Of a stretch of 21,608 nucleotides of DNA, positions 1 to 19,100 are shown piece after piece; position 1 is the first letter of the stretch; each line of letters opens with the position of its first letter. The position numbers were made by a program, and so were the translations under genes. The notes under the pieces are model-generated. The model was not told the origin of the DNA and did not search any database. It was given only the letters and a program-made list of their open reading frames with translations. Source of the DNA: a virus; the IMG/VR virus record IMGVR_UViG_3300049846_001912, positions 1-21,608 of that record, one strand, 5' to 3'.

Positions 1-1060
1 CGATCTTGGCCGACCAGTAACCGGTCGTCTGTGCGTTGACCAAGAGCATTTCGAGGATTTCAAGATCGATTTCCAACGAAATGTATTCGGACAACATAGC
101 AGTCAATTCGGCTTCTGCGTCGATCGAATGGTACGCGTTCAAGTCCTGCGCGAGTTCAGGCGTCCAAACGGCCTTCAACTTACGGGTCTTAGCAACGATA
201 GGCTCGGAGCGAAGCTGCAAGTTGATTTCCGGAATAACGAGGTCAACACCACCAGAATCCTGGTTCGAAGAACCAAGGGTATCTTCGAAGTCGCCACGGG
301 TCGAATCCGTTGGCTGCTTCGAGTATTGAACCATCGTGATCGTATTGCCGACGTTGGCAACGAACGTAATGACGGTCTGGTCAGCATTCAAACGAGTGTA
401 TGCTGGAAGCCAGCCGGTTGCAGCAGAACCGTTGGCGAGCAACGGAATGAACGACTTGGCTGCGGTCAAATCAGCGTTCGTCAAGCCCGAGACGGACATC
501 GAGTATTCGGCAAGACCAGTGATGGAAACACCAGACTCGTAGTTGACCGATGCGGTCGTTGCGGACTGCGAAACAGCTGGGGTAACGGACGCCGAGACGT
601 CATTGATGGAGTAGCCGAAACGGCCTGCGCCATACAAACCACCCGTTGGGACGGTTGCGGAACCCGAGGTCGTACCATACAATGAATTACCAACGGTGAA
701 CGGCTTGACGCTCGTTCCGTACTGGAAATCCATGTAGAAGATAAGGCCGGACGGAAGATTCATCGGCTGAACGGACACGAATTCCTTCGCGGCAATTTCA
801 CCGAAGACCTTACGAACGAGCGGAAGGGCAACACCCGACCACTGTTCGGCATTTGCGCCACCGGTCTTGTTGTTTTCTGTAACGAGCTGGCGGGCCTGGT
901 TCTCAAGGAGAACTGCCATGCTACCGCGGTCGTTATCGGACTTCATACCTTCGAGAAGACCCGTCTTTTCCCACTTCTTGGACAATCCACGGGATTGTGC
1001 CAGAAGGGCATCAAGAGGAGTCGAGCTCTCCGATATCAGTTTGCTTAGATCAAAACTCAT
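1..1060 (-). CDS. 23: Major capsid protein, T4 gp23-like (3' end cut by window edge)
   Basis: This is the hexameric shell subunit of the T4-type head. I translated the first 353 codons by hand from the ATG at 1060; the frame stays open to the window edge, so the C-terminus is missing. T4 gp23 hallmarks are visible: an N-terminal LLEG/LLENQ delta-like region, then LVRKVF...VQPMNLPSGLIF around residues 81-102, and near the left edge KLKAVWTPELAQDLNAYHSI followed by AEAEL, which matches the gp23 signature KLKAxWxPExAQDL. Two candidate prohead-protease sites lie in the N-terminal arm: LLE37|G38 and, at the position equivalent to the T4 processing site, VTE62|N63. The gene lies 21 bp downstream of the scaffold gene, with AGGT about 10 nt before the ATG. 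It was probably missed by start-to-stop ORF calling because it has no stop codon in the window. Family assignment is very secure. Confidence 0.95.
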   Translation of the reverse strand, partial: MSFDLSKLISESSTPLDALLAQSRGLSKKWEKTGLLEGMKSDNDRGSMAVLLENQARQLVTENNKTGGANAEQWSGVALPLVRKVFGEIAAKEFVSVQPMNLPSGLIFYMDFQYGTSVKPFTVGNSLYGTTSGSATVPTGGLYGAGRFGYSINDVSASVTPAVSQSATTASVNYESGVSITGLAEYSMSVSGLTNADLTAAKSFIPLLANGSAATGWLPAYTRLNADQTVITFVANVGNTITMVQYSKQPTDSTRGDFEDTLGSSNQDSGGVDLVIPEINLQLRSEPIVAKTRKLKAVWTPELAQDLNAYHSIDAEAELTAMLSEYISLEIDLEILEMLLVNAQTTGYWSAKI

Positions 1061-1081: not shown

Positions 1082-2338
1082 TTAGTTAGCGTCTGGACGA
1101 ATTCCAGCGAGCTTTTGCATACGGGCGCGATGTACATCGCCACCTTCGTTTAGAACTTGTGCTGTCTTCGACTTGGTAGAAGCGACAGGCTTCGATGCGC
1201 CTTCAGTGATCTTGGCAGCAATCTTGCGTGCGGTATTTCCACTACCCTTGGCCATCAACGTTTCAGCCAATGTGGTGAATACAATCTTCGCTTCACGAAG
1301 TGTCGTAGCGCGGTCAAGCTGTTCCACAACCTTCTTCTTCTGATCTTCGGCAAGGTTGAACTTACGGAAAATCTTGGTCGTGTACATTAACTTGGAGTTA
1401 AGCAACGTGACCTCGTTGATACGATTACGAAGTAGGACAATAACAGAGCGGTGCTCGCGGAGTGAACGCTTGAGCTCAACGTTTTCAGAAGCAATATTGG
1501 CGTTCGTTTCATCGACGCTCTCTGCTTCCATTTCACGAAGAATTTCGTCTAGGTCTACTTCTTCATCCACAGAACCCTTAGCCTTCGTAAAGTCCTTGGT
1601 GCCAAAGGCGTTTCCAGCCAATTCTGCACCTGGCTTTACTTCCTTGCCACCGTTCACGCCATCCTTGGCGGTCGGGGACTTGCCGTCGCGGGAGACGCCA
1701 TCTTCTGGCTGTCCTGGTACGGTTTCTTCTAGTTCCTCATTACCAGCGAACTTACCTGCCATTGCGTGCTTGCCGGCCTGTGCAGTGTTCCAGTTTTCCA
1801 TTTCTGGCTCTGGTTCGTCACCGAACTGGTCGGGCTCACCACCGAACTCATCGGCGCCGCCTGCGGCACCACCCATCTGGAGATCGGCTTCAAGTTCACG
1901 AATGATAGCTTCAAGGTCGAGCTCATCGCCGCCTTCTTCGCCACCGAATTCGTCACCTTCTTCGCCACCGAGCTCTGCCGGGGCGGTAGCAGCGGTTGGA
2001 TCGCCGCCGAAATCATCAACACCTTCGCCCATCGGTTCCTGTTCGATGCCGGGATTTTCGATATCCGACGAACTGGAAGCGGAAGCGGAAGGCTTCTTTG
2101 GTGCGGGCTCATCAACGGTCGTACCGCTACCACCGATATCAGACGAATCGAGTTTCTTCTGTTCGTCTACGGACTCTTCGTCCATTGTTTCTTGTTCATT
2201 ACGAAGCTTGGCCGTGAGCATCGACGTCAACTGGGGCTTGAAGGCCTCCTTTAATGTCAGCATTGCGTTAGCAATAGCAGCATCCTTGACAGTCTTAGCA
2301 TCGGCAATCGCTTCGGAGAGAAGTCGGTCTTTTGCCAT
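1082..2338 (-). CDS. 22: Prohead core/scaffold protein, T4 gp22-like
   Basis: This 418-residue protein is the likely internal scaffold on which the capsid assembles; it should be proteolysed and expelled before packaging. Residues 50-275 are very acidic and low in complexity (EELGGEEGDEFGGEE-type runs, Gly/Asp/Glu rich). Residues 284-362 form a conserved helical domain containing the LLNSKLMYTTKIFRKFNL and LDRATTLREAKIVFTTLAET signatures of T4-like scaffold proteins. Five (L/I)xE|(A/G) protease sites are visible: LSE9|A, LKE31|A, LRE349|A, ITE379|G and LNE398|G. I chose the ATG at 2338 (MAKDR); a TTG five codons upstream (2353) is possible but has no better SD. The gene sits directly upstream of gp23, as in T4, and 31 bp after an intrinsic terminator. 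The long antisense ORF over it is a by-product of Glu/Asp-rich codons. Confidence 0.88.
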   Translation of the reverse strand: MAKDRLLSEAIADAKTVKDAAIANAMLTLKEAFKPQLTSMLTAKLRNEQETMDEESVDEQKKLDSSDIGGSGTTVDEPAPKKPSASASSSSDIENPGIEQEPMGEGVDDFGGDPTAATAPAELGGEEGDEFGGEEGGDELDLEAIIRELEADLQMGGAAGGADEFGGEPDQFGDEPEPEMENWNTAQAGKHAMAGKFAGNEELEETVPGQPEDGVSRDGKSPTAKDGVNGGKEVKPGAELAGNAFGTKDFTKAKGSVDEEVDLDEILREMEAESVDETNANIASENVELKRSLREHRSVIVLLRNRINEVTLLNSKLMYTTKIFRKFNLAEDQKKKVVEQLDRATTLREAKIVFTTLAETLMAKGSGNTARKIAAKITEGASKPVASTKSKTAQVLNEGGDVHRARMQKLAGIRPDAN

Positions 2339-2368
2339 AGTATTATTACCCAATGCGTACAGAGACGC

Positions 2369-2433: not shown

Positions 2434-2492
2434 ATTCTGTGATCTTGAAATAAATAGACTGTATTCAGTTGTAACGCACGAATTTGTAACAA

Positions 2493-2768
2493 TTAGATAT
2501 CGAATGTATCCGTTTTTGACCACTGAGACTTTCGACTATCACGCTTTCTACGCTTGATGGCTTCGTTTTTTCGATATCGCTTGTATTTGGACGGCGTCAT
2601 ATACGCCTCACGTTCCCGCAGTTCATTCATGATTTCGCTTTTCTTTATGCGCTTTTTGAATTCACGAAGGGCCACATCAACGGCGGCACGATCTTTTTTG
2701 GCATCGCCGGTGTTGTTAACAAATACTTCTAATCCAATGGATTTTACAGACTTTTTCTTTTGGGACAT
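2493..2768 (-). CDS. rpsU: bS21-like ribosomal protein encoded by the phage
   Basis: This 91-residue, very basic protein has the core (residues 28-80) of small-subunit ribosomal protein bS21: a VDVALREFKKRIKKSEIM segment matching the bS21 pattern of FDVALRRFKR-type residues, then ELREREAYMTPS and an Arg/Lys-rich tail RKNEAIKRRKRDSRK. It carries about 20 extra N-terminal residues compared with E. coli bS21 (71 aa). In the ribosome bS21 sits near the 3' end of 16S rRNA, close to the anti-SD, and supports initiation. Phage-encoded bS21 is known from uncultivated and some cultivated phages; the proposed role is to replace host bS21 and bias translation toward phage mRNA. A good SD (AAGGG, 5 nt spacer) precedes the ATG. 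It is the last gene before the terminator at 2369-2391. Homology call is strong; role is inferred. Confidence 0.85.
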   Translation of the reverse strand: MSQKKKSVKSIGLEVFVNNTGDAKKDRAAVDVALREFKKRIKKSEIMNELREREAYMTPSKYKRYRKNEAIKRRKRDSRKSQWSKTDTFDI

Positions 2769-2775
2769 TCAACCC

Positions 2776-3225
2776 TTAACCTTTTGTTGGAGGAACAATA
2801 CGGGATACGTCGGTGTCAGCAACGGCTTCGGCACGGGAGAATTCAGTAACGGTACCACCCACACCACCGGCGCGGGCGAACTCGGTGACCGTACCACCGA
2901 CACCACCAAATCCTGCTTCTTCGACAGCGGCGCCAGCGCTCTGAATTCTTGCCACATCCACTTGCTTCTGACGAGACGACTTGGAAACATACTGCATAAC
3001 GTCAATACCACCCAGTGCGCCAAGGAAAATCAACCAGTTATTGTCGATTGGCATTGGTGACGCCGTACCACCTGTCAAGGCGGCACGTTCTGCTGCGGCC
3101 CAGAACGACAACCAATACGTTACGGCTGTGCCGGACGCAAGAATCGTCGTTACCAGAATACGAACATTTGTGAAAGAGATTTTATTGAAGATGTCGATCA
3201 GTTGATCAAGTTTAGTCATGTTCAT
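2776..3225 (-). CDS. Small membrane protein with tandem 13-residue repeats, unknown function
   Basis: This 149-residue protein is not recognised. It has two likely membrane helices: about residues 22-45 (VRILVTTILASG...WLSFWAAA) and about 64-80 (WLIFLGALGGIDVMQYV). A charged linker (SKSSRQKQVD) follows, then a Gly-rich tail with two adjacent copies of GGVGGTVTEF(A/S)RA (residues 107-132). Size and topology are compatible with a class II-type holin. Its position inside the head block also fits a membrane anchor for prohead assembly, as T4 gp40 assists portal initiation at the membrane. Both roles are inference. The first of two close ATGs is chosen because CAGGTAA lies at a suitable distance; that SD overlaps the stop codon of the upstream gene, 4 bp away. 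Confidence 0.75.
   Translation of the reverse strand: MNMTKLDQLIDIFNKISFTNVRILVTTILASGTAVTYWLSFWAAAERAALTGGTASPMPIDNNWLIFLGALGGIDVMQYVSKSSRQKQVDVARIQSAGAAVEEAGFGGVGGTVTEFARAGGVGGTVTEFSRAEAVADTDVSRIVPPTKG
2830..2907 (-). repeat. Tandem 39-bp repeat (two copies) coding GGVGGTVTEF(A/S)RA
   Basis: Two adjacent in-frame 39-bp units encode residues 107-119 and 120-132 of the membrane protein. They differ by one residue (A or S), with several silent changes in the DNA. This is a recent local duplication in the C-terminal tail. Confidence 0.8.
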
Positions 3226-4651: not shown

Positions 4652-5242
4652 TTAAACCCCCATTTCGGTGATGAAATCACGAATCAACGAATCGATAGTT
4701 TCATATTTATTTGTTTGTATCTTCACTCCCTCATTGAGAAAGGCGCCATGCGTGGAAGGATTCGACACGAGATCGAAACAGATCAAGTTGAAGTCATCTT
4801 CGACTTCGACCTTACCTTCACCCAACGATCGAACGGAACCGACGCCGCGGGAGGATACACCGAGACGGATACCATTCTTCAACAGCTCACGGACGATATT
4901 ACCAGATGGGGTACTCAATACTTCGACCGTACCACAGAGATCGTCACCTTCCCAATGCATTTCCACAATGTTGTGTGACACGTTCTTCAAATTGACAACC
5001 GTCGAGTCCGGGTGATCTAATTCACCAAGAGCACGACGTTGTTTGATGAAATCCGTATCATATTTCGAGGATTCTCGCATCAAAATGTTCTTAGGATACG
5101 AACGACCGTTCTGATTCTCGGCATCTGCACGTTGGAGAATGCCCTTGATTTTGATTGGGGCATTCGGATTGGCAGCAGATTCAGCAAGAATCTGATTCTG
5201 GTCGTACGCTAGTGGAAAATATTCAACTAAGAGGGTTTTCAT
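4652..5242 (-). CDS. 21: Prohead maturation protease, T4 gp21-like
   Basis: This 196-residue serine protease cleaves core and capsid proteins inside the prohead. Family features: an N-terminal IKIKGILQRADAENQNGRSYP segment, GELDHPDS with the likely catalytic His77, HWEGDDLCGTVEVL, the LGVSSRGVG motif with the nucleophilic Ser (130 or 131), and FDLVSNPS with a conserved Asp157. A LNE171|G172 site near the C-terminus fits the enzyme's own (L/I)xE|(A/G) specificity and suggests self-cleavage. I chose the ATG at 5242 (MKTLLVEY), with AAGG upstream and 1 bp after the previous stop; a longer form from 5275 would overlap the upstream gene and has a weaker context. The position between portal and scaffold matches T4. 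Confidence 0.92.
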   Translation of the reverse strand: MKTLLVEYFPLAYDQNQILAESAANPNAPIKIKGILQRADAENQNGRSYPKNILMRESSKYDTDFIKQRRALGELDHPDSTVVNLKNVSHNIVEMHWEGDDLCGTVEVLSTPSGNIVRELLKNGIRLGVSSRGVGSVRSLGEGKVEVEDDFNLICFDLVSNPSTHGAFLNEGVKIQTNKYETIDSLIRDFITEMGV

Positions 5243-5243
5243 A

Positions 5244-5939
5244 TTAGGCCTTGAGTTCGCGGAGACGGTTAGCAATAGACACTAGTTTGCCTTCGAGTTT
5301 GGCGAGTCCCTTCGCGGTACTCTTCCACATTTCTCCACTTTGGAGATTGGTTTCGGTCTTGAGTCGAGCGTTCATACGAACTACACGGTCAAGTTCTGAC
5401 AACTGTGCGTTGATTTCACGAATGGCACGGCCGATCTTTTGTCGAGGCGTACCTTCGGCCATCTTATAGGTCACATATCGGTTTTCCGATACAATAGATT
5501 CGGAAGTAGTACGTTGTGCCGACGATTCCCGTGCTTTATCCTCACGAGCTCGTTCCAATGCTTGTTGCAGGCTACGAACCTTCTGTTTCAAACTATAGTG
5601 CGGTCCACCGAATCCACCAGATCCACCGGCACTTGTAAATGTTTGACCTTTTGTTCGTTCCGTGGCATTCGCCAACTTTTCTTTTGCTGATTTTAATTGT
5701 TGTTCGATTCTAGCAATATCTGCGTCAGCATCTTCTTTCAATGCCCCACCGTTACCACCAAATTTCACAGGAGTGTGATCTTTCTTATCGATGCCTTTCT
5801 TCTGTGGTTTCTTACCCTTTGGACCTACGAATGCACCGGGAATCATGTAGCCTGGAGTGGCGGAGGACGATGTGACTTCGTCTAATTCTTCATCTTTCAA
5901 TTCTCGAATCAACCCGCGAAGTGCATCATTGTGTGACAT
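5244..5939 (-). CDS. Conserved phage protein with SSATPGY motif and coiled coils, function unknown
   Basis: The product has 231 residues. Near the N-terminus is DEVTSSSATPGYMIPGAF, followed by a Lys/Gly-rich segment; a similar T-S-T-x-x-GY-x-x-P-x-AF motif recurs in phage proteins, often in the head gene region. Residues 73-95 and 116-137 look like coiled coil, separated by a Gly-rich hinge. The C-terminal 70 residues (TPRQKIGRAIREINAQLSEL...LAKLEGKLVSIANRLREL) form a conserved-looking helical bundle. No catalytic residues were recognised. An almost perfect SD (AAAGGAGG at 5946-5953) sits 6 nt before the ATG at 5939 and decides this start over a TTG two codons upstream. It overlaps the previous gene by 14 bp. 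An assembly role is inferred from position only. Confidence 0.78.
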   Translation of the reverse strand: MSHNDALRGLIRELKDEELDEVTSSSATPGYMIPGAFVGPKGKKPQKKGIDKKDHTPVKFGGNGGALKEDADADIARIEQQLKSAKEKLANATERTKGQTFTSAGGSGGFGGPHYSLKQKVRSLQQALERAREDKARESSAQRTTSESIVSENRYVTYKMAEGTPRQKIGRAIREINAQLSELDRVVRMNARLKTETNLQSGEMWKSTAKGLAKLEGKLVSIANRLRELKA

Positions 5940-6879: not shown

Positions 6880-8730
6880 CTACTCTTTAACAATGTGTTT
6901 TTCAAGTATTTCGTCGTCAAGGAACGTACCCTTGTCGGCGTCTGACGACTCGGCGAGCACGGACGGCGTCCGTGACGGGGCGGTTCTGCCAAACTTTCGA
7001 TCAATTCCCTGCTTGATTTCCAACGACAATGGCGGCTTTCGACTTGGTTTACGAGTTTTTTCCATTGAATGGCGGGCAACCTGGTATCGCTCATCGTTAC
7101 CGAGAGGGTCACGACCTCGTGGGTGACTGTCTTGTCCATAGGTTGATCCCACTTTTGGTCGGCCCGGCCCCGCGGCTTCGCCCATTCCCGCAGGTGGGGC
7201 GCCACCGGCATCGTCCATTGGTGCCGATTCATCGACCGGTTCGAGATCCTGTGGATAGCCATACTTGGCCGGATCGGATTCACCGGCTTCAATGGTGTTC
7301 TGACGGAACGTACGCTTGACGTCATTGATGACCCCGGCACGTTGTTCGGCCATCTCATCCTTGCTGAAGTTGAAGACGTTTTCGTAGATCCAGTCCGACG
7401 AAATCAACTTCGTGGCTACGGCGTCCGATGCGGTCTGAATCTTTTCCTTCCACAAATTCAGCTTTTCCTGCTCGTAAATGGTCGATGGAATGGTCAAATT
7501 CAACTTGAAACTGACCAGTTCTTCATCGGTGAATCCCTGGGCATACAAATGGATAATGCCAATTTTATGCAATTCGGCAACGATGATGTCCTGTAGATGT
7601 TCGATGGTACGAGCGAATCGAACGTCTTCCGCGGCAAGAGTCAACTTACCGTTGGTTTCTTCGTCATATCCCAAGAATGGCTTCGGAATTTTCAACGCGG
7701 CCATCATACGATTACGAAGATATTCGATGTCTTCAATAGAATTGAATTCCAATCCACCAAGATTGGTGATTTCCGTACCAGAATCACCACCACGGACTGG
7801 AATATAGAAGTCTTCGAGGATGTTTTGCATATTGTATCGCAGATTGTAATCACCCGAGGACTGATCGATGAACGGCACTTTCTTCATCTTGTCCGCGATA
7901 CGTTGCATATAGGTTTCGATTTCGGCCGGTGGAATATTACCAATGTCTAACTTGATAACACGCTTTTCCGGGGCACGCATAATACGATGGATCAACATAG
8001 CATCTTCCATCAATGTCAGTTGCTTCCATGTACGACGTGCACCTTCGATGGCAGCACGACCATAGGGCAAGAAATTACTGTCCGACATAAGACGGAAATG
8101 GCAGATTTCATAGTTTTCGAACCGGACTTTCTTACCATTCATGCCCATGGTTTGGAAATACACATAGCGGGGGTTGTCCGGATCTTCCCCTTCCACTCGA
8201 ATCGTGTCATATACCGAGAGTGGCTGTGCGTTGATGATGCCGTACTTCTCGTTGATTTCCAAGAACAAGAATGCATCACCGTACTTGCACATATTGCGAA
8301 CCCACGGTCGCAGATTGAACTGAATGTTCAGAATGTCAAAGAACAGGTTGTGTAGAATTTCCTTGACCTTCTCATCTTCACACTCGACCGTCAATACCTC
8401 GCCATATTCGTTCTTCAGCGTGGATTCATCCGCGTAAATATCCAATGCGGCATTGATGATGGGGTCGTTATCCATAATGTCATACTCGCGAAACAACATG
8501 ATACGTTGTGTCTGATATGCCATGTTGAGTCCGTACTGGTTGGACAATGAGTTGCCCATTCCTGACGAACTGAAGATTCGGCTATATCGATCCTTGTACG
8601 CATTGGACATATACGACTGGATGAAATCCGTATCTGCCACTTTCAACTGCTTACCACCAGTATGTCGAACCACTACACCGGTAGAGAACAGTTTTCGGAG
8701 TCGTTGAAATAGATTACCGCGTTCGGCCAT
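6880..8730 (-). CDS. 20: Portal (head-tail vertex) protein, T4 gp20-like
   Basis: This 616-residue protein should form the dodecameric ring that starts head assembly and serves as the DNA channel. T4 gp20 features: REYDIMDNDPIINAALDIYADE (79-102), NMCKYGDAFLFLE in the wing, the strongly conserved MEDAMLIHRIMRAPEKRVIK and LDIGNIP stretch (241-267), LEDFYIPVRGG-DSGTEITNL (305-324) and the stem/crown helices after IEYLRNRMMAALKIPKPFLGY (336-355). The C-terminal 120 residues are a Pro/Gly-rich, then basic, low-complexity tail that I do not recognise from T4. The stop is TAG at 6880. The SD before the ATG is weak (TGGA). Unlike in T4, the gene follows terminase directly, with no sheath or tube genes between. 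Confidence 0.95.
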   Translation of the reverse strand: MAERGNLFQRLRKLFSTGVVVRHTGGKQLKVADTDFIQSYMSNAYKDRYSRIFSSSGMGNSLSNQYGLNMAYQTQRIMLFREYDIMDNDPIINAALDIYADESTLKNEYGEVLTVECEDEKVKEILHNLFFDILNIQFNLRPWVRNMCKYGDAFLFLEINEKYGIINAQPLSVYDTIRVEGEDPDNPRYVYFQTMGMNGKKVRFENYEICHFRLMSDSNFLPYGRAAIEGARRTWKQLTLMEDAMLIHRIMRAPEKRVIKLDIGNIPPAEIETYMQRIADKMKKVPFIDQSSGDYNLRYNMQNILEDFYIPVRGGDSGTEITNLGGLEFNSIEDIEYLRNRMMAALKIPKPFLGYDEETNGKLTLAAEDVRFARTIEHLQDIIVAELHKIGIIHLYAQGFTDEELVSFKLNLTIPSTIYEQEKLNLWKEKIQTASDAVATKLISSDWIYENVFNFSKDEMAEQRAGVINDVKRTFRQNTIEAGESDPAKYGYPQDLEPVDESAPMDDAGGAPPAGMGEAAGPGRPKVGSTYGQDSHPRGRDPLGNDERYQVARHSMEKTRKPSRKPPLSLEIKQGIDRKFGRTAPSRTPSVLAESSDADKGTFLDDEILEKHIVKE

Positions 8731-8799: not shown

Positions 8800-10419
8800 T
8801 TACAACAACCACCGAAAATCTTCATCGGTTCCGTCGGCCAGTGGCATCTTGTATGGATCACTCATTCCGTTACCTGGCGTATAAACGGCGTCATAGGTAT
8901 GTACCTTATTGATCTTGTCCAATGAGAGCCGTGTGTATTCAAGACCCCGTTGGTGGACCTGTAGTGCAGTATCTCGAACCCATAGGCCGATACAAAAGGA
9001 CATCACCAAATCGTCATTGTAGTTTTCAGCGGCTTGAGGCTTTCCATTTTCCCAAATAAACGTCTGCAATTCGTCCAATAATCGACCCGAACGAATAATG
9101 ACTTGGGTATCTCGCATGTACTGGTCCAACTTGGAAATGATTAATGGACGCGTTCGAATGGATGTGGTGAATCCGGCGATGGACTTCTTTTCCAACCGAT
9201 TCAATTTATTGGAACGAATTTCATTCGGATCCAAATATTTCAAATCTTCGGTCATGTAGAACAGATTCTTGTACCCACGTTCGATGACCGTTTGGATAGT
9301 GGCCCATCCGACATTTGCGTTTTCAATGATCAGTAGTGCGTCATTGTATTCCGTTGCAATCGCAATCAACAAATGGCCAAAGTCCGTGGTGGACAGCCGA
9401 CCTTTGTATTCCGCTACTTGTGTACAGGTCTCCACGTCGATGACGTGGAACGCAGAATAGTCGCCGGAGTCGGAATTTTCACCGCGGCCGACGTCGGCAC
9501 ACACGATATAGCTTCGTGTATAATTAGGCAGTTCCCATACGAATACATCGCCGCCGGGCCCTTTCTTCAAAATCGGGTCTGCTCGATATGTCTTGTTGTA
9601 AAATTCAATAAGATCGCCATCAATGACCGTATTACCAGAACCAAGGAAATCTGCGTCGTATTCTTGACGAGCTTTTCGTGGGTCCATGATGGTATCTTGC
9701 AGGGCACGCCATTCTGGGGACCGGTTCGGATCGTTTCGCCAATCCAATTTCAACGGGAACATGACTTCGCCGCCGGGATCACGGCCGACGAATTCTTCCG
9801 CTTCCACATATTTCTTGTGGAAAAAGCCACCGATACCGTTCGGCGTAGAAATGATGATGGCCCGACCACCCGTAGACAACGTAGCCTGAGCAGATGTCCA
9901 AATTTCATTGGCATTTTTGATGTGCGCCGCTTCGTCGATGATTAGCAACGAAGCTGCTTCAGAACGGGCCGAATCTTCCGAAGCTGACAGAGCTTTAACC
10001 TGTGATCCATTCTTCAGTCGCATGCTCAATTTGTTGTTTTCCGTCACCGGTACCTGCAACCAGACCGGTAGATTGTCAAACGCGAATCGAATCTTCGTTA
10101 CAATGTTCTTAGCGGTTTCTTGTTTCGTGGCAATGATAACGATGTTCTTGTCTCGATGGAACAACATCAACCACAACGTATGCATGGATACCAGTGTAGA
10201 GAATCCAATCTGACGGCCCTTCAGTACAATGGTGTACTTCTTTTGCTTGAACGTTTCGAGTGCGTCTTTTTGATATGGATAGAGATTGAATAGAAATCGA
10301 CCTTTCTGTGCGTGTTGAATCATTGCATATTTCTGCATGAAGTACGCTTCATCTGTCGCACACTTGACGTACTCGGTACGAATCATATCCTTGAGGTTGA
10401 TTTTCTGTGTGTCGGACAT
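8800..10419 (-). CDS. 17: Terminase large subunit (packaging ATPase and nuclease), T4 gp17-like
   Basis: This 539-residue motor pumps DNA into the prohead and cuts concatemers. ATPase motifs: variant Walker A KGRQIGFST (67-75), Walker B LLIIDEAAH (158-166, D162/E163) and coupling motif STPNG (191-195). The RNase H-like nuclease domain shows CADVGRGENSDSGDYSAF with D309, IIENANVGW with E366, and NYNDDLVMSF with D469/D470. The usual P-loop lysine before the S/T is replaced by Phe73; Lys67 upstream of RQ may substitute, as in other large terminases with displaced basic residues. Length is somewhat below T4 gp17 (610 aa). The gene starts 3 bp after the preceding gene. No small terminase gene is in the window. 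Confidence 0.95.
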   Translation of the reverse strand: MSDTQKINLKDMIRTEYVKCATDEAYFMQKYAMIQHAQKGRFLFNLYPYQKDALETFKQKKYTIVLKGRQIGFSTLVSMHTLWLMLFHRDKNIVIIATKQETAKNIVTKIRFAFDNLPVWLQVPVTENNKLSMRLKNGSQVKALSASEDSARSEAASLLIIDEAAHIKNANEIWTSAQATLSTGGRAIIISTPNGIGGFFHKKYVEAEEFVGRDPGGEVMFPLKLDWRNDPNRSPEWRALQDTIMDPRKARQEYDADFLGSGNTVIDGDLIEFYNKTYRADPILKKGPGGDVFVWELPNYTRSYIVCADVGRGENSDSGDYSAFHVIDVETCTQVAEYKGRLSTTDFGHLLIAIATEYNDALLIIENANVGWATIQTVIERGYKNLFYMTEDLKYLDPNEIRSNKLNRLEKKSIAGFTTSIRTRPLIISKLDQYMRDTQVIIRSGRLLDELQTFIWENGKPQAAENYNDDLVMSFCIGLWVRDTALQVHQRGLEYTRLSLDKINKVHTYDAVYTPGNGMSDPYKMPLADGTDEDFRWLL

Positions 10420-11067: not shown

Positions 11068-11666
11068 GTGGCCGCCTGTTCATCAAGTTCTTCTTTGGTG
11101 ATTTGTTCCAATCGAGCTTTGCACATTTCGATATCTGCTCGAACTTCGTCAAATGTACCTTCGAATAGAGATTTGGATGCGATTTCTTCCCACCGACCAT
11201 CACCATAATGCTGTTGTGGTGTACGGAAGGTTCGAATGTAATCTTCATGTTCCTGAATCTTTTCATTGAGAAACGCCTTTTCATTCTCTCGCATGATGTG
11301 ACGTTCGTATGCATCAAATGTACCATCAAGTTTCATTTGGGTGTGCCATTTCAACGTGCACTCCATACAAAACCCATGCAATCGATAAAACTTGTCATCC
11401 AATCGATGATTCATGGACTTGGTACATTTCGGACACCAATACGGAGTTCGTAATCCTTCGAATTTACTGATCGATTGGACAATGCCGTTGCGTCGAGTCC
11501 ATTTCTTTCCATTATGATCCTCCCACACTTCATTTTCCTTTCGATCGGCGTGGATGGACTTCGTATCGGTAACAGCAACGGTTATTTTGTCGAACTTCTT
11601 ATCAGTTCGTTGGATCAAATCCTTTCGAATACGATCTAACTGTTGCATCTTCTTCAGATCACTCAT
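11064..11666 (-). CDS. Zinc-ribbon protein, function unknown
   Basis: This 200-residue protein has one clear Cys4 zinc ribbon: CPKC (C78, C81), then an 18-residue loop and CMEC (C100, C103). Just before it lies a conserved-looking segment WEDHNGKKWTRRNGIVQS. N- and C-terminal parts are charged helices. Such ribbons usually bind nucleic acid or a protein partner. The ATGA overlap with the upstream nucleotidyltransferase gene and GAGG 6 nt before the ATG indicate coupled translation, so a partnership with that enzyme is an attractive inference. No enzyme motif was seen. I do not recognise the family with certainty. Confidence 0.75.
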   Translation of the reverse strand: MSDLKKMQQLDRIRKDLIQRTDKKFDKITVAVTDTKSIHADRKENEVWEDHNGKKWTRRNGIVQSISKFEGLRTPYWCPKCTKSMNHRLDDKFYRLHGFCMECTLKWHTQMKLDGTFDAYERHIMRENEKAFLNEKIQEHEDYIRTFRTPQQHYGDGRWEEIASKSLFEGTFDEVRADIEMCKARLEQITKEELDEQAAT

Positions 11667-14600
11667 TTAGAACCTCGTTTGTCTATGAATCGTCGTGCTA
11701 CTTTGTGTGCTGGGTGGGCCGGTGGATATTTCAATGCCGTTTTGACCAGAATTTCATTATCCGTTTCTGGATTTTTGATTGTTGCATTATCGATTGGGTC
11801 TTGTTGAACCGGTGGGGCATCCGACTGGAACGTAGGAACGGCCGTATCGGTCGTGGGTTCATCGATAACGGATATATCCAATTCACTTGGGGGAATTTGT
11901 TTGGTCTTTTGGATGCTATCTTTGATCGCCGCGACGATTTCCGATCGTTGATTCTTGAATCGGAATGACGGCGAGAGAAGCTTTTCGTACATTTTTTCGA
12001 AAGTATCAACTTGATCCCACGTTACACCCTTACCGAACAACATTTGTGTCATTTCATCAGGATCGGACGTCACCAATTTCTTGGATAACGGTACTCGCTT
12101 ACCCTTTTCGTCCATTTTGTACGTGACCAGTTCCAGTCCATTCTTATTGTCGATTTGGAACTTCTGTCGTACCCCCTCTTGATCGGTCGGGAATGAGACA
12201 CGACTGAACGTGGCAATAGGAATCATGTTTCTGGCCACCGCCTTGTGCATACTACCGGCGCCAGCACCAGATTGGAACTTCTCCATCCACGGACGATTAC
12301 CTACAAATACATCCAATTGAACATATCCTGGTACATTCTGCGGTTGGCCGTTTGCATCTATTGCATTCATCGGACGGCCCGTGTCATCGGTCAACGGCAC
12401 CAGAATGCTGAATTGATTCAGTCCTGATTGTACTCGATGTTCGATGTTTTTGCCCGTCAATTGATGTTGAACCGACTGATAGAATTCGGGTGTGCCGTAT
12501 TGCGAACCCAACAATGTTGACAGATCGGATTTATCGATGGCAACGTCAATGTCACCCAAATACGGCTTCGTTTTGTTACCGACGATGCTATGTGGAACGG
12601 TAAGACCGGCGGCCGCCAACCCACGTTGAACGACCGATCCGAGGTGCTGTTGCGGCACCACGGAATTGACCTTATCGAATTGATTGCCACCTTCCATCAG
12701 TGTCTCGCCCAACGCAGATTTTGCAGCTTTGTGTGCGGGGTGATTGGCCGGATATTTCAACGCCGTTTTGACCAGAATCTTGTTCTTGGTTTCCGGATTG
12801 ATGATTCGCTGATTCAACTGACGTTGTAGCTTTGGAGACATCACGTCTGCGTCGACATCGGTCTTTTTCGTTGTATCGTCTACCGATTTTGGTGCCGAAA
12901 GACCTGACGATGGTTCCTTTCGTGGTTCCTTCACACCCGTGGCCAAATCGTTCGCACTGGGTGCAGGTTTGCCCGCCGGTTGCAGTTTGTACGTATAAAT
13001 ACCAACGATTTGATTCACCGGGGCAAACGCACCAGTGAATTTCATCAACTTTCCGTTGAATGTGAATACCAATCCTTCGGCCGGTGCAATCTTATCAATG
13101 CCAACCGTGGACAACGTTCGAAGTTCTTTCTTCATCTTATTGACGTATTCAGGATTGTTGCTCTTCTGAATTGCATCGATGGCATTCTTGAGCTTAGCTT
13201 TCAATTTTTGATCGGTGCCATCGTTGCCCGCGACGAAGTTGGTAACTCGATTCATAGCGTCCGCGCCCACATTAAGTACAACGGATTTGATAGGCGAGAT
13301 AATATCGGATTGAATATCCTTGTAATTTGCGTCGATTGTACGAAATGCAGCATTTTTCTCTGGATCTTTAATACTTCGAATGTTGAACGATTTGTCACCA
13401 AATGCCCATCGGCGAACTAGTCCATCCGTTTCTTCCGGGGTCCACGAATGGCCGGTAGATTGTAATTCTTGTAGCCATGCACGAGATAAGAAATCACCAA
13501 CCGTATCGGTGTCGGATAGACCCGATGATGATGCAATTTGTGACAATTGATCAATGTAGTGTTGTGCACGATGTTGGTCTTCTGGTGTGGTTTTGAACTG
13601 TACTGGATTCTTGCCCACGATTTTGTACTTGGATCCCGATTCACCACCGGCCGCGATGATATTCTGCGCCAGCAAATCCGCAGCATCCTTATCAATATCA
13701 ATTGGATTGCCGGTCGCCGGGTCGAATTCACGAACACTCAACAACATAATCTGATTGGTGTTGTATGGAATCGTATTGGGTAGGTCTTTGTTCAAAATTT
13801 CACCCATGACAAAGTTACGACCGTTTCCAAATATACGATTCAACTCGGCAGGATCCATTTTTTGAACGGCCGATTCTACATCTTTAGCTGCTGCACGGAA
13901 TGATGATGCAACCGTATCCCCGTGACCGGCAAAGAAATCACCAAACTCATCTGCCGTCATAGCCGATTGGCCACCATTCTTAGTATGTTGTGTGTTGCGT
14001 GCGAACTTTACCTGACCGTCTTTGATGGTGAACATGATGTTCTGTCCATCTGTTTTTTCCGTCGCGGACTTACCCAAGTCCCCCACCAATGCTTGATTGG
14101 TGAGGTTCTTAAGATCCCCAAAGGTCATATTCGGATCCTCGTATGGATGTTCGATATGACTCTTTGGTGCCGCTTCGAGAATCAGACTGTGCTCAATCCG
14201 ATTCGAAATAATCGCCCACGTTTTTCCCAGCAAAGTCTCCGACAAGTACGTACCCAAATTCACAATCATTTCATCTTTGGTTTGGGATTTTTCTCGTTCC
14301 TTGTATCGAATATTGACTTCAGGATCCTTCACTCGATTCGGTCGATCCACACCCGCGGCCTTCATTTCTCGTTCCGCCGCTTTATATACAGGCTTCCATC
14401 GAGGGTATTTCAACGCGGACTTGACCTGGATTTCACGACCGGTGTCTGGATTTACAATCATTCGATCCATTGGTGGTGTGTCGTCGGTTTTTTCATCATC
14501 TTGTGTTGCGGGTTTTTCCGCCGGGGCCTGTGTCGGTTCGGCTTTGGTTCGAACGCCAGAACCTTTATCCGTTGCTTTGGTTTTAGCAGGACTCGATGAT

Positions 14601-15262
14601 TTTTCAGGCTCGGCAGTAGACACATCCGATGATTTCTGTACCAACATATTGAAAATTGTATCATCATCTTTGCCATACAATTTTCGGAAGATTTCCTTCT
14701 TCTTCTCTTCAGGTACCTCGGACGATCCCATAACCGCTCGGATCTTTGTGCCGGAATTCATACCGTCATCATCGATCAACTCTGGTGCAACGACATAATA
14801 TCCCGCATCTTTCCATCCTTCGAGAGGAAGATCGTCGATATAATGTCGAAAATACTTGCCACCACTCAGTCGTGCTGCATCCTTGCTGGACACGGCAGAC
14901 ACGTATGCGGTAGTAGCAGGATCGAACTGTGCAAGAATCTCCACAGGGTTGTACGGACTCTTGACCTGTTGTATTTTGTCAGGATCGATATCGAACATCG
15001 TGGTCATTACTTGCTTTTTTTCTTGGAAGTTCAGTGGGCTTCGGCCAGGTTCCGTCTTGTCGGATGTACCGATGAACACATTTTCCTTTCCAAACTTATC
15101 GACCAAGGCTTTGTATACACTGGCGTGGCCGGCGTGAAACGGCTGAAATCGGCCGGAATACACCGCGATCACCCGCTTTACTCCTTTGTCTTCTCGCAGC
15201 ATCTTCTTCAACTCGAACGCGAGTTCGCCGGCGAGCCGATTCGATTCAAATGTTAAATCCAT
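11663..15262 (-). CDS. Three-domain nucleotidyltransferase fusion (HxGH NTase + KxDG ligase + pol-beta NTase)
   Basis: This 1199-residue protein contains three separate nucleotidyl-transfer signatures. Residues 28-206: NMN/cytidylyltransferase-like fold with GRFQPFHAGH (HxGH = H43-H46) and the partner motif NSGTKIRA (169-176). Residues 370-765: covalent ligase/Rnl2-like domain with motif I EKTDGQN (nucleophile K403), R422 after KFA, motif III MGEI (E488), motif IV EGLVF (E729) and motif V KLMKFTG (K738/K741); the III-IV interval is unusually long (about 240 residues). Residues 857-1113: pol-beta-type domain with GGNQF, GDIDVAID (D904, D906) and QLDVFV (D984). Copies of NPxT...ILVKTALKYP flank or separate the domains. 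The likely role is RNA/DNA end repair, tRNA repair or nucleotide/NAD metabolism; this cannot be fixed from sequence. SD before the ATG is poor. It follows the fibre cluster and overlaps the zinc-ribbon gene by ATGA. Confidence 0.85.
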   Translation of the reverse strand: MDLTFESNRLAGELAFELKKMLREDKGVKRVIAVYSGRFQPFHAGHASVYKALVDKFGKENVFIGTSDKTEPGRSPLNFQEKKQVMTTMFDIDPDKIQQVKSPYNPVEILAQFDPATTAYVSAVSSKDAARLSGGKYFRHYIDDLPLEGWKDAGYYVVAPELIDDDGMNSGTKIRAVMGSSEVPEEKKKEIFRKLYGKDDDTIFNMLVQKSSDVSTAEPEKSSSPAKTKATDKGSGVRTKAEPTQAPAEKPATQDDEKTDDTPPMDRMIVNPDTGREIQVKSALKYPRWKPVYKAAEREMKAAGVDRPNRVKDPEVNIRYKEREKSQTKDEMIVNLGTYLSETLLGKTWAIISNRIEHSLILEAAPKSHIEHPYEDPNMTFGDLKNLTNQALVGDLGKSATEKTDGQNIMFTIKDGQVKFARNTQHTKNGGQSAMTADEFGDFFAGHGDTVASSFRAAAKDVESAVQKMDPAELNRIFGNGRNFVMGEILNKDLPNTIPYNTNQIMLLSVREFDPATGNPIDIDKDAADLLAQNIIAAGGESGSKYKIVGKNPVQFKTTPEDQHRAQHYIDQLSQIASSSGLSDTDTVGDFLSRAWLQELQSTGHSWTPEETDGLVRRWAFGDKSFNIRSIKDPEKNAAFRTIDANYKDIQSDIISPIKSVVLNVGADAMNRVTNFVAGNDGTDQKLKAKLKNAIDAIQKSNNPEYVNKMKKELRTLSTVGIDKIAPAEGLVFTFNGKLMKFTGAFAPVNQIVGIYTYKLQPAGKPAPSANDLATGVKEPRKEPSSGLSAPKSVDDTTKKTDVDADVMSPKLQRQLNQRIINPETKNKILVKTALKYPANHPAHKAAKSALGETLMEGGNQFDKVNSVVPQQHLGSVVQRGLAAAGLTVPHSIVGNKTKPYLGDIDVAIDKSDLSTLLGSQYGTPEFYQSVQHQLTGKNIEHRVQSGLNQFSILVPLTDDTGRPMNAIDANGQPQNVPGYVQLDVFVGNRPWMEKFQSGAGAGSMHKAVARNMIPIATFSRVSFPTDQEGVRQKFQIDNKNGLELVTYKMDEKGKRVPLSKKLVTSDPDEMTQMLFGKGVTWDQVDTFEKMYEKLLSPSFRFKNQRSEIVAAIKDSIQKTKQIPPSELDISVIDEPTTDTAVPTFQSDAPPVQQDPIDNATIKNPETDNEILVKTALKYPPAHPAHKVARRFIDKRGSK
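11696..11779 (-). repeat. NPxT/KYP motif copy 3 (residues 1162-1189)
   Basis: Encodes IKNPETDNEILVKTALKYP followed by PAHPAHKVA at the extreme C-terminus. ILVKTALKYPxxHPAHK is shared exactly with copy 2 apart from the two variable positions. Confidence 0.8.
12722..12805 (-). repeat. NPxT/KYP motif copy 2 (residues 820-847)
   Basis: Encodes IINPETKNKILVKTALKYP followed by ANHPAHKAA, between the ligase and pol-beta-like domains. Its DNA is visibly similar to copy 3, including the shared block GCCGTTTTGACCAGAAT on the plus strand, which points to a within-gene duplication. Confidence 0.8.
14375..14458 (-). repeat. NPxT/KYP motif copy 1 (residues 269-296)
   Basis: Encodes IVNPDTGREIQVKSALKYP plus the following WKPVYKAA, between the HxGH domain and the ligase domain. 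This copy retains the NPDTGREI form and may be closest to the ancestral sequence. The NPxTGRxI core resembles short adaptor motifs seen in some viral proteins (for example the 2-cysteine adaptor), but the Cys residues are absent. Confidence 0.75.
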
Positions 15263-15307: not shown

Positions 15308-15339
15308 GTCACTTCCTATAAATAGGATGCTGAATTGGG

Positions 15340-15353: not shown

Positions 15354-16172
15354 GTAGTCAAAAAACGAAATAGAACCGTAATTTGTCCACGATCCTGTAG
15401 TAGTCAATCGTGCCCGCAACCAAATAGTATGCGTTTCCCCAGGATCGGAAATAAATCCAGTGACATATTGTGTGGAACTACCACTAGGTGTGCCGGAGTA
15501 ACTAGAATTACCGTGCCATTCGACATTAAAGTTGGACAAATCCAATGGTCGTTGACTGGAACTGACCGGAAATCCACCGTTCGGACCGGATCCTGTCGGA
15601 TACAACGTGTAATTGAACCCGCCGAGATCAGGAGCAAAGCTAGGAATAAACTCGGCAACAGAATATGCACCGCCTGGATTCGTGGTTGTTACAAACGCGT
15701 TAAACCGGATACGTTCGGGATCCGTGGCAGTCACGGAATTTGCGTTAAATCGGCAAGAACCACTGTACGTGGCAGTTCCAACCTGTGCACCAGAAACTTC
15801 AAATGCTATAGCGCCGCCGCCGGGGCCGCCAAGACCGTCACCAGGTCCTGCTCCACCGGACACCAATCGATACTCTAATCCAGAAGTTGTTCCGGAAATC
15901 GGGAGCATTTGAAGACTCCACGCACTGATAGTTCGTCGTAAAATTGCCGACGCCGATTCTCCAAAATTTCCCAATGTGAATGAAACACTCAACGACTGTG
16001 ATTTCGGATATGCCGTGCTGGGATTAGGACCACTATCCACCGAGATGCTGGGGATAAGATAGTGTGACATTCGCGTGCCATCGATAGCACCCGTAACATG
16101 GTTTCGAAATGATTGACCAGCCGTTCCACCAAAATTACTAGCTTGAATGAGAGAAATAAGGTCACGAGCCAT
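15348..16172 (-). CDS. Beta-rich, glycine-rich fibre-cluster protein (possible distal adhesin or fibre tip)
   Basis: This 274-residue protein is not recognised. It begins MARDLISLIQASNFGG, then has a Ser/Thr/Gly-rich body with few Lys and many alternating hydrophobic residues, typical of beta-structured virion proteins. A Gly/Pro-rich loop GGAGPGDGLGGPGGG (about residues 106-120) stands out. It overlaps the 3' end of the S74 fibre gene by 11 bp, with AAAGG upstream of the ATG. The slot right after a long fibre is where T-even phages keep gene 38, whose gp38 adhesin also uses Gly-rich loops; this parallel is positional and compositional only. Alternatives are a baseplate or fibre-connector subunit. 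Confidence 0.65.
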   Translation of the reverse strand: MARDLISLIQASNFGGTAGQSFRNHVTGAIDGTRMSHYLIPSISVDSGPNPSTAYPKSQSLSVSFTLGNFGESASAILRRTISAWSLQMLPISGTTSGLEYRLVSGGAGPGDGLGGPGGGAIAFEVSGAQVGTATYSGSCRFNANSVTATDPERIRFNAFVTTTNPGGAYSVAEFIPSFAPDLGGFNYTLYPTGSGPNGGFPVSSSQRPLDLSNFNVEWHGNSSYSGTPSGSSTQYVTGFISDPGETHTIWLRARLTTTGSWTNYGSISFFDYR

Positions 16173-19100
16173 TATGATTTACCTTTCGTTGTAGTTCTTC
16201 GATCTGTGCCTGTTGTGCGTTGATGGCCTCAATCAACAATGGGATGATACGGTCGTATGCTACCGTCAAATATCCCGTACCATCGGTCATAACTGCCTCG
16301 GGCAGGACTTGTTGGATTTCTTGAGCAATAACACCTACTTGTGGTACATCATCGGTTTTGAGTGTATAGGACACACCACGAATCGTACGAATCTTATCCA
16401 GTGGGTTACTGATAAGTACAATGTTCTTCTTCAACCGTACGTCAGAGGACAATTGATAGTTTGGCGCGGTGATAGATCCGGCAAATGATGCTGATCCGCT
16501 TGTCGCAAGCGATCCTGTAATATCTATACCACTCGTAGTGACTTCGAGTCGTCGAACACCGGATCGAATAAATTGAATGTTATTGGTATTGGAATATAGC
16601 GTTGCTGCGTACGCCGATGCGGCTGTAAAGAATGCACCATCGGTGGAACTTTCCAATCCCACATAAAAATCGCCGCCGAGATTTCGAATATTCAAATATT
16701 GTGCACTGGTAGAACCGGGCACTCCGGATTGTATTGCACCAGAAACAATTGCACCGGCAAAAGTTGGAATATCACCGGTTTGTAATCCAGTATCTACATC
16801 TGCATTAACTCCATTGATTGTCGCTCGAACGGTGCCTTGTGCCGGCGAAGAGAATGTCGAGCTTGATACCAATGTTGGAGAATTTATCAAGATACCAGCA
16901 GTATTGGCATACGATGCGGTACCAGCAAAGCCAACATTATTGACCACCGAGCTGGTATAGCCAGATGCCGAAATTACACCTTGGACGTGCAATGTTGTTG
17001 CTGGCGTTGCCGTTCCGATACCCACATTACCCAGTGCATCAATGCGCATGCGTTCTGGCATGTTAATCGTTGCATCAATTGGCGATGTAAACGAACCGGA
17101 TGTATAGAATACAATGTTTCCTGCATTAACACCAAATGCGCCAAGTTTGACCAATGCACGGCCCATTGCACTGCCATAACTGGAATGGAACGTGCCGGTA
17201 ACACTGCTAGAAGGTGCAAGACCCGCAGCGATATTCAAATCTGCAATAGAATGTTGTGTCCAAATGTTGGCGTAGTTATTGGCCATACCACCCCACGAGA
17301 TACCTCGATTGGCGGTGGCGTTACCCAAGTCCAATATGTTTTTTGCCAACGATGATGTACTGGTGCCAATGTGAACTTGACCGCCGAAATAGCCAAGTGA
17401 CGCCGATCCACTGGTCAAATCACGATTACGAATGAAGAAATCAACTAGGTTGTTCTCGTCTTCCGCATAATATGGATAGACTGTTGTACCATCATTGTCA
17501 TAATCGCCAATCCAAACACCAACAACATTACTTGTAACGCTTGCGCTGTTGTACGTACCACCGATGGCGACACGTTTTGTCAACCCCGCAACGCCGCTGG
17601 TGCCGATCCCACCTTGTATGGTGCCTAGTACGATACCTGTTGACCCGGTGAACATGGAGGCAGATACTCTACCTTGTACATGAAGGCCAGCAAATGACGG
17701 TGTATCCGTTGTTTGCAACCCAGTATCTACATCAATATTGACCCCGTTGATTGTTGCACGAACTGTTCCCTGTGACGTAGTTGTGAACGTAGATGCAGAC
17801 ACCAGACCATCTGGTGCACCGGATAGAGTGGACCATGTGGCATTTTGTGCATATGACGCACTGATAGCAGTATACGACGACGAGGCAACCGTAGCAAATG
17901 ATGCCGTAACATTTGGATAACTACCACTCAATCGAAGTGTGATGTTAGCGATCTGTCCACCGGAACTCGAAGACCCAGAGAAATCTGCACCAAAATTCAG
18001 GACTTCCGATATAGCGGTAATATTGGAACCGGTGATTTGAATGGTAGACGTACCGCCACCAACACCTGCTCCGCTACCGGACCCACCCAACAATACAAAA
18101 TCATTTGCAAAAATGGACGCGCTGGAATACATGCCATGAGAGGCAGAAACAAAGCGTGGTGTAATCAATGCACTCGATACCGACGCAATAGCGCCACTAA
18201 TGAAGTGTGTGGATCCGGTATCCACCTGTACCGACGCCGAGAACAGTGTTGGTGTAGCAGTAATTGCGCCAAATGGAATGGATTTCGCAACGGATGCACT
18301 GGTGACAAACGATGCAGATAGTGCATACGACGCCGACAGTCCATATGATGCACTGTTGGCTATATACGATGAGGATGCGAATGTGCCAAAACTTGCCGTT
18401 GTGGCAAAAGATGCACTGTTAGCTCGATAAGATGACGATGCAAACGTGGCAAAACTTGATGTTGTGGCAAAAGACGCTGACAATCCATATGATGCGCTGT
18501 TAGCTCGATACGAAGACGATGCAAACGTGGCAAACGATGCAGTGATGTCATACGATCCTGTTAGAGCAGCAATAGGCACGACGCTGGTGAGATTTGCAGC
18601 ATCCAAGTAGTACGTGCCTTGTTGTCCGTCTAAGAGATCGGCGTCCAGTAGTGAACCAGCGCCATCATTTTGTTCGGTCCAGATTTTCCACGACTGTCCC
18701 CAGGTGCCCAATGCACGCATACGGTAAATCAGTGAGCCGGTGCTGTAGGAAGTAGTTCCGATCTGAACCGAGTATTGACCCGGCGTGCTTGTTGGGTGTT
18801 CAATGTGCAGGCCCATAATGCCGAATTGTGTGGCATTATCCCGATAGAACATGGATCGACTGATATTGTTGGCTCCAATACCGCCGTCGGCCGGCGTTGC
18901 GTTGTATGTACCAACATTAGAATCGCCATAGACAAATCGATATCGGTCCGGCGTACCCAACGCAGACGCGGTAATGTCGTACGAGCCCGTCAATCGTGCA
19001 ATGGGTACGACACCCGTGCTCAAGTTACTAGCATTTTCAAAATATGAACGAGAAACACCGCCCAACGTACTTGCATACGATGCCGTCTGTGTGGCAGGTG

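Follow-up and report, generated by a model that had tools for sequence, protein, structure and literature searches.

A phage-encoded ribosomal protein bS21 gene kept directly before the scaffold and capsid genes in T4-type phages

The window, that is, the whole 21,608-nucleotide stretch of viral DNA analysed here (IMG/VR record IMGVR_UViG_3300049846_001912, positions 1 to 21,608), carries on its minus strand a head-gene module in the order TerL, portal, two ORFs, prohead protease, three small ORFs, bS21, putative scaffold, and Gp23. The genes on which the analysis centred are as follows.

8800-10419, minus strand: terminase large subunit (PF03237, 2e-15; phrog_2, 3e-54)
6880-8730, minus strand: T4-type portal protein gp20 (PF07230, 1e-66)
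4652-5275, minus strand: prohead protease, Peptidase_S77 (PF03420, 6e-28; phrog_207)
2776-3225, minus strand: small putative membrane protein, HM1 (from the ORF list; the same neighbour in related loci L002, L003, and L083)
2493-2768, minus strand: phage-encoded ribosomal protein bS21, 91 aa (PF01165, phrog_21469, and PDB bS21 chains; conserved in L002, L003, and L083)
1082-2340, minus strand: putative prohead core scaffold, gp22-like by position, preceding Gp23 and with a conserved N-terminus, MAKxxLLxEAIADAK
1-1060, minus strand: major capsid protein Gp23, truncated at the edge of the window (PF07068, 4e-37)

The placement of bS21 directly ahead of the scaffold-capsid pair and the identity of its neighbours were as the initial annotation had given them. 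Because the ORF at 1082-2340 had no Pfam or PHROG match, the label "scaffold" reflects its position and composition only; for its start, the ATG at 2338 (2338-2340) was better than the TTG at 2353. The start of the bS21 gene lies 7 nt past the stop of the preceding head gene, HM1, and these two genes are likely co-transcribed.

The ORF at 2493-2768, which begins with ATG and ends with a stop at 2493, encodes bS21. The profile search on which the initial annotation had staked this assignment returned the Ribosomal_S21 family PF01165 (hmmscan, E = 6e-8; its score of 32.7 bits exceeds the cut-off of 27 and was obtained again on repeat), and the protein also matched phrog_21469, "ribosomal protein S21" (3e-9), and 24 bS21 sequences from the PDB (best, 7e-7), so that the identity first proposed was borne out. 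The conservation of residues in contact with 16S rRNA was gauged through the family core, in which nine residues, A33, R35, K38, K43, R51, R53, E54, P59, and K72, were invariant across the window clade and the PDB bS21s. A structure model of the protein was all-helical with a mean pLDDT of 69, and a Foldseek search with this poor model gave zero matches, probably owing to the quality of the model. In comparison with cellular bS21 (PF01165; E. coli and F. johnsoniae), the window protein has the core helix region and the conserved basic residues in common, but is longer at its N-terminus by about 19 residues, part of which form an insert that precedes helix 1. An N-terminal extension of about 20 residues had been noted initially; its length stands, whereas its description as a simple extension does not, as the region consists of about 10 basic residues, a strand-like GLEVxV that is the counterpart of the canonical bS21 N-terminus, and then an insert of 8-9 residues ahead of helix 1. 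The basic tail and the insert are kept in three to four relatives, three of which are 64-65% identical to the window protein.

The conservation of this arrangement was examined in related loci that were fetched with the window bS21, portal, and capsid proteins, nearly all of them through portal or capsid, so that the set was not selected for bS21. A bS21-like ORF was present in 57 of 161 loci, the window included, and in 50 of the 77 related viral loci that have both the protease and the scaffold, although many of the loci are redundant or partial and the counts are not independent. The gene was on the scaffold's strand in all 50 loci and 115-200 nt upstream of the scaffold ORF in 48 of them, with the two exceptional copies at 1.0 and 3.0 kb from the scaffold. 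This check of gene order in related phages, which had been called for at the outset, demonstrated that the position before the scaffold is kept across many phages and across different bS21 sequence types. At the same place, bS21 was absent in 27 of the 77 loci, and none was found in the complete genome of Flavobacterium phage immuto (160 kb) or in a 166-kb relative contig; bS21 is therefore optional, as judged from the 27 loci and immuto. Where present, the gene is under purifying selection, which is strong in close pairs, with dN/dS mostly below 0.4 for these and a median of 0.29 over 295 pairs, synonymous sites being saturated for pairs within the window clade.

A tree of 57 bS21 sequences was based on 66 usable columns with long branches meeting, and allows coarse statements only. 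Most phage proteins grouped with Bacteroidota (84/94 support), and the window clade (97/85 support) fell outside this Bacteroidota-like group at a poorly supported placement. Two profile scans of cellular genome contigs, the second built from the other bS21 type, returned no relatives of the window-type bS21, and the scan with the other type gave only Bacteroidota among its best 80 matches. The occurrence of two or more bS21 types at one genomic position suggests that the gene was acquired or replaced repeatedly there.

Among the ribosomal proteins that viruses encode, bS21 is the most common. Chen et al. (2022) described phage bS21 among head genes, with core structural genes within ten genes in 388 of 900 bS21 phages, reported its late expression together with structural genes from metatranscriptomes, and hypothesized a late takeover of the ribosome (PMC9723584); the idea of a late translational role that the initial annotation had put forward was thus already proposed by these authors. 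Their Bacteroidetes phages and the window phage share myovirus head genes and a bS21 gene near the TerL, portal, prohead protease, and capsid genes. In the published phages, however, the bS21 genes are opposite to the structural genes, whereas those of the window and of the 50 related loci are co-directional; the window bS21, unlike theirs, sits right before the scaffold; and position 54 (F. johnsoniae numbering), aromatic in 61 of 61 of their phages (PMC9723584), is Lys in the window clade. The window is accordingly a further example of a kind of bS21 phage already described, and it and its relatives depart from the phages of Chen et al. in the common strand and, for the most part, in Arg/Lys at position 54. 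Myoviruses with bS21 also include Pelagibacter phage HTVC008M (PMC6375957) and the pelagimyophages (PMC7029224). The HTVC008M protein, the one phage bS21 that has been tested, was incorporated into E. coli ribosomes by Mizuno et al. (2019) and strongly reduced their translation (PMC6375957).

The closest precedent for the gene order is Microcystis phage Mel-JY01 (PP395634), in which an annotated RpsU is co-directional and lies between the prohead protease and the scaffold-capsid pair, as in the window; the arrangement was therefore previously on record. The Mel-JY01 portal is 47% identical to that of the window, while two additional genes stand between RpsU and the scaffold, and its bS21 sequence is distant from the window's. 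Across the related loci, many phages with different bS21 types keep the gene in one place, immediately ahead of scaffold and capsid and in their orientation, which leaves fewer mechanisms worth testing. As a separate observation, Mel-JY01 (locus L163) was deposited as infecting Microcystis, and its head module is closest to phages with a Flavobacterium-infecting known relative; its host label may deserve a check.

The gap between the bS21 and scaffold genes contains a promoter-like box and RNA elements, listed here with a structured RNA found upstream of the scaffold gene in related phages.

2449-2457, minus strand: promoter-like box CTATTTATT, a putative late promoter, with comparable boxes in the corresponding position of L003 and L083
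2406-2443, minus strand: window-clade leader element, GATCACAGAATACG-hairpin-CGTGCGGGTGAC, with near-identical flanks and a changing paired stem in L002 (2171-2208), L003 (7011-7052), and L083 (8718-8758)
2369-2395, minus strand: hairpin B, a 6-bp stem with loop UCUGAAUA, separated from the scaffold ATG downstream by about 35 nt (sole significant match of the R2 covariance model in the window, at E = 9e-8, to a sequence that was in the training set)
L132 8636-8685, L104 8665-8713, L157 8753-8802, and L005 16282-16334: domain A, a structured RNA of 50 nt that precedes the scaffold gene in Bacteroidota-like phages

A copy of CTATTTATT with one mismatch occurs at 15317-15325 on the minus strand, in the intergenic stretch that precedes the gene whose start is at 15262. 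Both CTATTTAT boxes (2449-2457 and 15317-15325, minus strand) thus lie in intergenic gaps upstream of genes, and are possibly the late promoter of the window clade. The promoter-like box, together with the conserved RNA hairpins in the gap, suggested that transcription of the capsid mRNA probably starts separately and provides it with a leader, in which case equal timing of bS21 and capsid would not be guaranteed. The initial description of bS21 as lying at the end of the head operon consequently holds in so far as the gene is grouped with the upstream head genes across a gap of 7 nt, but the scaffold-capsid pair behind it seems to be separately promoted with an RNA leader.

Hairpin B, with the loop UCnnAAUA and a covarying stem, was found once per locus, ahead of the scaffold start, both in the window and in many relatives (for example, L010 6495-6521 and L043 8438-8464). 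A permissive search gave candidates in 89 of 94 leaders, some of them unconvincing, and the covariance model matched 18 of 41 loci (E <= 0.0012), most of these being sequences on which it had been trained. Since members were chosen for forming the stem, their 100% pairing is partly by construction; independent support comes from the position, the single copy, the conservation of the loop, and a chance expectation of 0.085 per window. For immuto, and for two phages at a greater distance, the model gave no significant match, and its match in Mel-JY01 was in the right place at E = 1.1. A plain terminator was not the preferred explanation of hairpin B: a T run follows it in the window, but most relatives have no T run and the loop is conserved. 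Domain A is built of two helices, in which both partners had changed in 9 of the 13 pairs, and has conserved UGAAUA and CCGAA; its covariation score was reached in 0 of 500 shuffles, with members picked by sequence motif and not by pairing. Homology of the window-clade leader element to domain A found no support, the best match of the R1 model in the window being elsewhere (E = 1.2). Rfam gave no match in the window at E <= 1, none credible in the relatives, and none for domain A or hairpin B, and a limited search of the available literature found no published description of the leader hairpins. Expression of T4 gene 43 is controlled via a hairpin operator (PMC3014915), and a translational operator or an mRNA stabilizer is a reasonable guess for the leader hairpin. 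Hairpin B and domain A also occur in phages with no bS21 in the module (L005, L093, L124, L129, and L148, with hairpin B in many more), and a tie of the leader RNA to bS21 was rejected on this ground. The conserved leader RNA, separate from bS21, is worth a study of its own.

As to the role of bS21 in these T4-type phages, we propose with moderate confidence that it refits host ribosomes while virion proteins are in high demand. The phage bS21 would be expressed together with the head proteins; it would join host 30S subunits, either newly made ones or by displacing host bS21; and the ribosomes bearing it would then sustain or bias translation initiation for as long as the demand lasts. This reading is supported by the family assignment, the synteny in 50 of 77 loci, the purifying selection, the RpsU of Mel-JY01, and the published late expression (PMC9723584) and incorporation (PMC6375957). 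Counting against it are the 27 of 77 loci that lack bS21, the lack of a strong Shine-Dalgarno (SD) sequence at the capsid start in most bS21-carrying relatives, the separate promoter-like box of the capsid unit, and the strong loss of translation in E. coli ribosomes with a phage bS21 (PMC6375957). On balance, late expression with a translational bias is plausible for the window phage.

Other explanations were weighed, all of them unlikely. bS21, a small protein, readily comes off the ribosome. If host bS21 were limiting or attacked during infection, the phage might supply a replacement without any preference for phage mRNA. A counter-defence role has been raised (PMC9723584) and the exchange of bS21 on the ribosome has been discussed (PMC9976891), but replacement alone does not explain the constant position before the scaffold, and we give this explanation a small chance. 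That position would be explained by a role in the virion or head, in which bS21 is packaged, helps to assemble the prohead as a basic RNA- or DNA-binding factor, or is brought into the cell upon infection. The tight synteny with the scaffold in different bS21 types, the strongly basic protein, and the delivery in virions suggested by Chen et al. (PMC9723584) favour such a role; however, the core family residues are kept, which a structural role does not need, and relatives build heads without bS21, so that it too appears improbable.

About as improbable is a switch acting through residue 54. The aromatic residue at this position holds the 16S 3' tail in Bacteroidia, and a phage bS21 lacking it might expose the anti-Shine-Dalgarno and favour SD-bearing phage mRNAs. 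In cellular homologues from Bacteroidota, residue 54 was Tyr throughout (67 of 67). Among 40 distinct phage bS21 proteins, a set from which the E. coli entry and a duplicated fragment had been removed, it was Arg in 27 and Lys in 5, 32 together, and otherwise His (4), Tyr (1), or another residue (3). The aromatic that blocks the anti-Shine-Dalgarno is thus mostly absent here, so that the published universal picture does not generalize, and its absence likewise narrows the mechanisms to test. In F. johnsoniae, the yield from a reporter with a strong SD was about 3-fold higher with Y54A ribosomes (PMC9976891). When loci beyond the window clade were compared, strong SDs preceded the scaffold gene in 14 of 24 with bS21, but were about equally common in loci without bS21 (13 of 29), and those before the capsid gene were few and similar in frequency with and without bS21 (7 of 30 against 8 of 45); all these counts are approximate, the start codon having been taken as the first ATG of each ORF. 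No strong SD was present before scaffold or capsid in the window clade, and the host of the window phage may be other than Bacteroidota. An SD switch at the capsid gene was therefore not supported, and the sequences argue against a simple one.

A combined form, in which a bS21 without the residue that hides the anti-Shine-Dalgarno acts together with the conserved leader of the capsid mRNA, yielding ribosomes that favour the scaffold-capsid message in a large phage group, would amount to a dedicated late ribosome if true, but we regard it as very unlikely. Least probable is that bS21 binds and regulates the leader RNA: the hairpins do lie between the bS21 and scaffold genes, but they are also found in the phages without bS21 named above.

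Two large genes elsewhere on the minus strand of the window were also recorded. Close to its N-terminus, the 1199-aa protein at 11663-15262 shows a weak match of cytidylyltransferase-like type; it also contains repeated motifs of the NPET..ILVKTALKYP..HPA type, and Mel-JY01 also has a cytidylyltransferase-like gene upstream of its terminase. The 1275-aa tail-fibre-like protein at 16162-19989 is rich in SSSFATFASSS-type repeats and ends in a C-terminal Peptidase_S74 chaperone domain.
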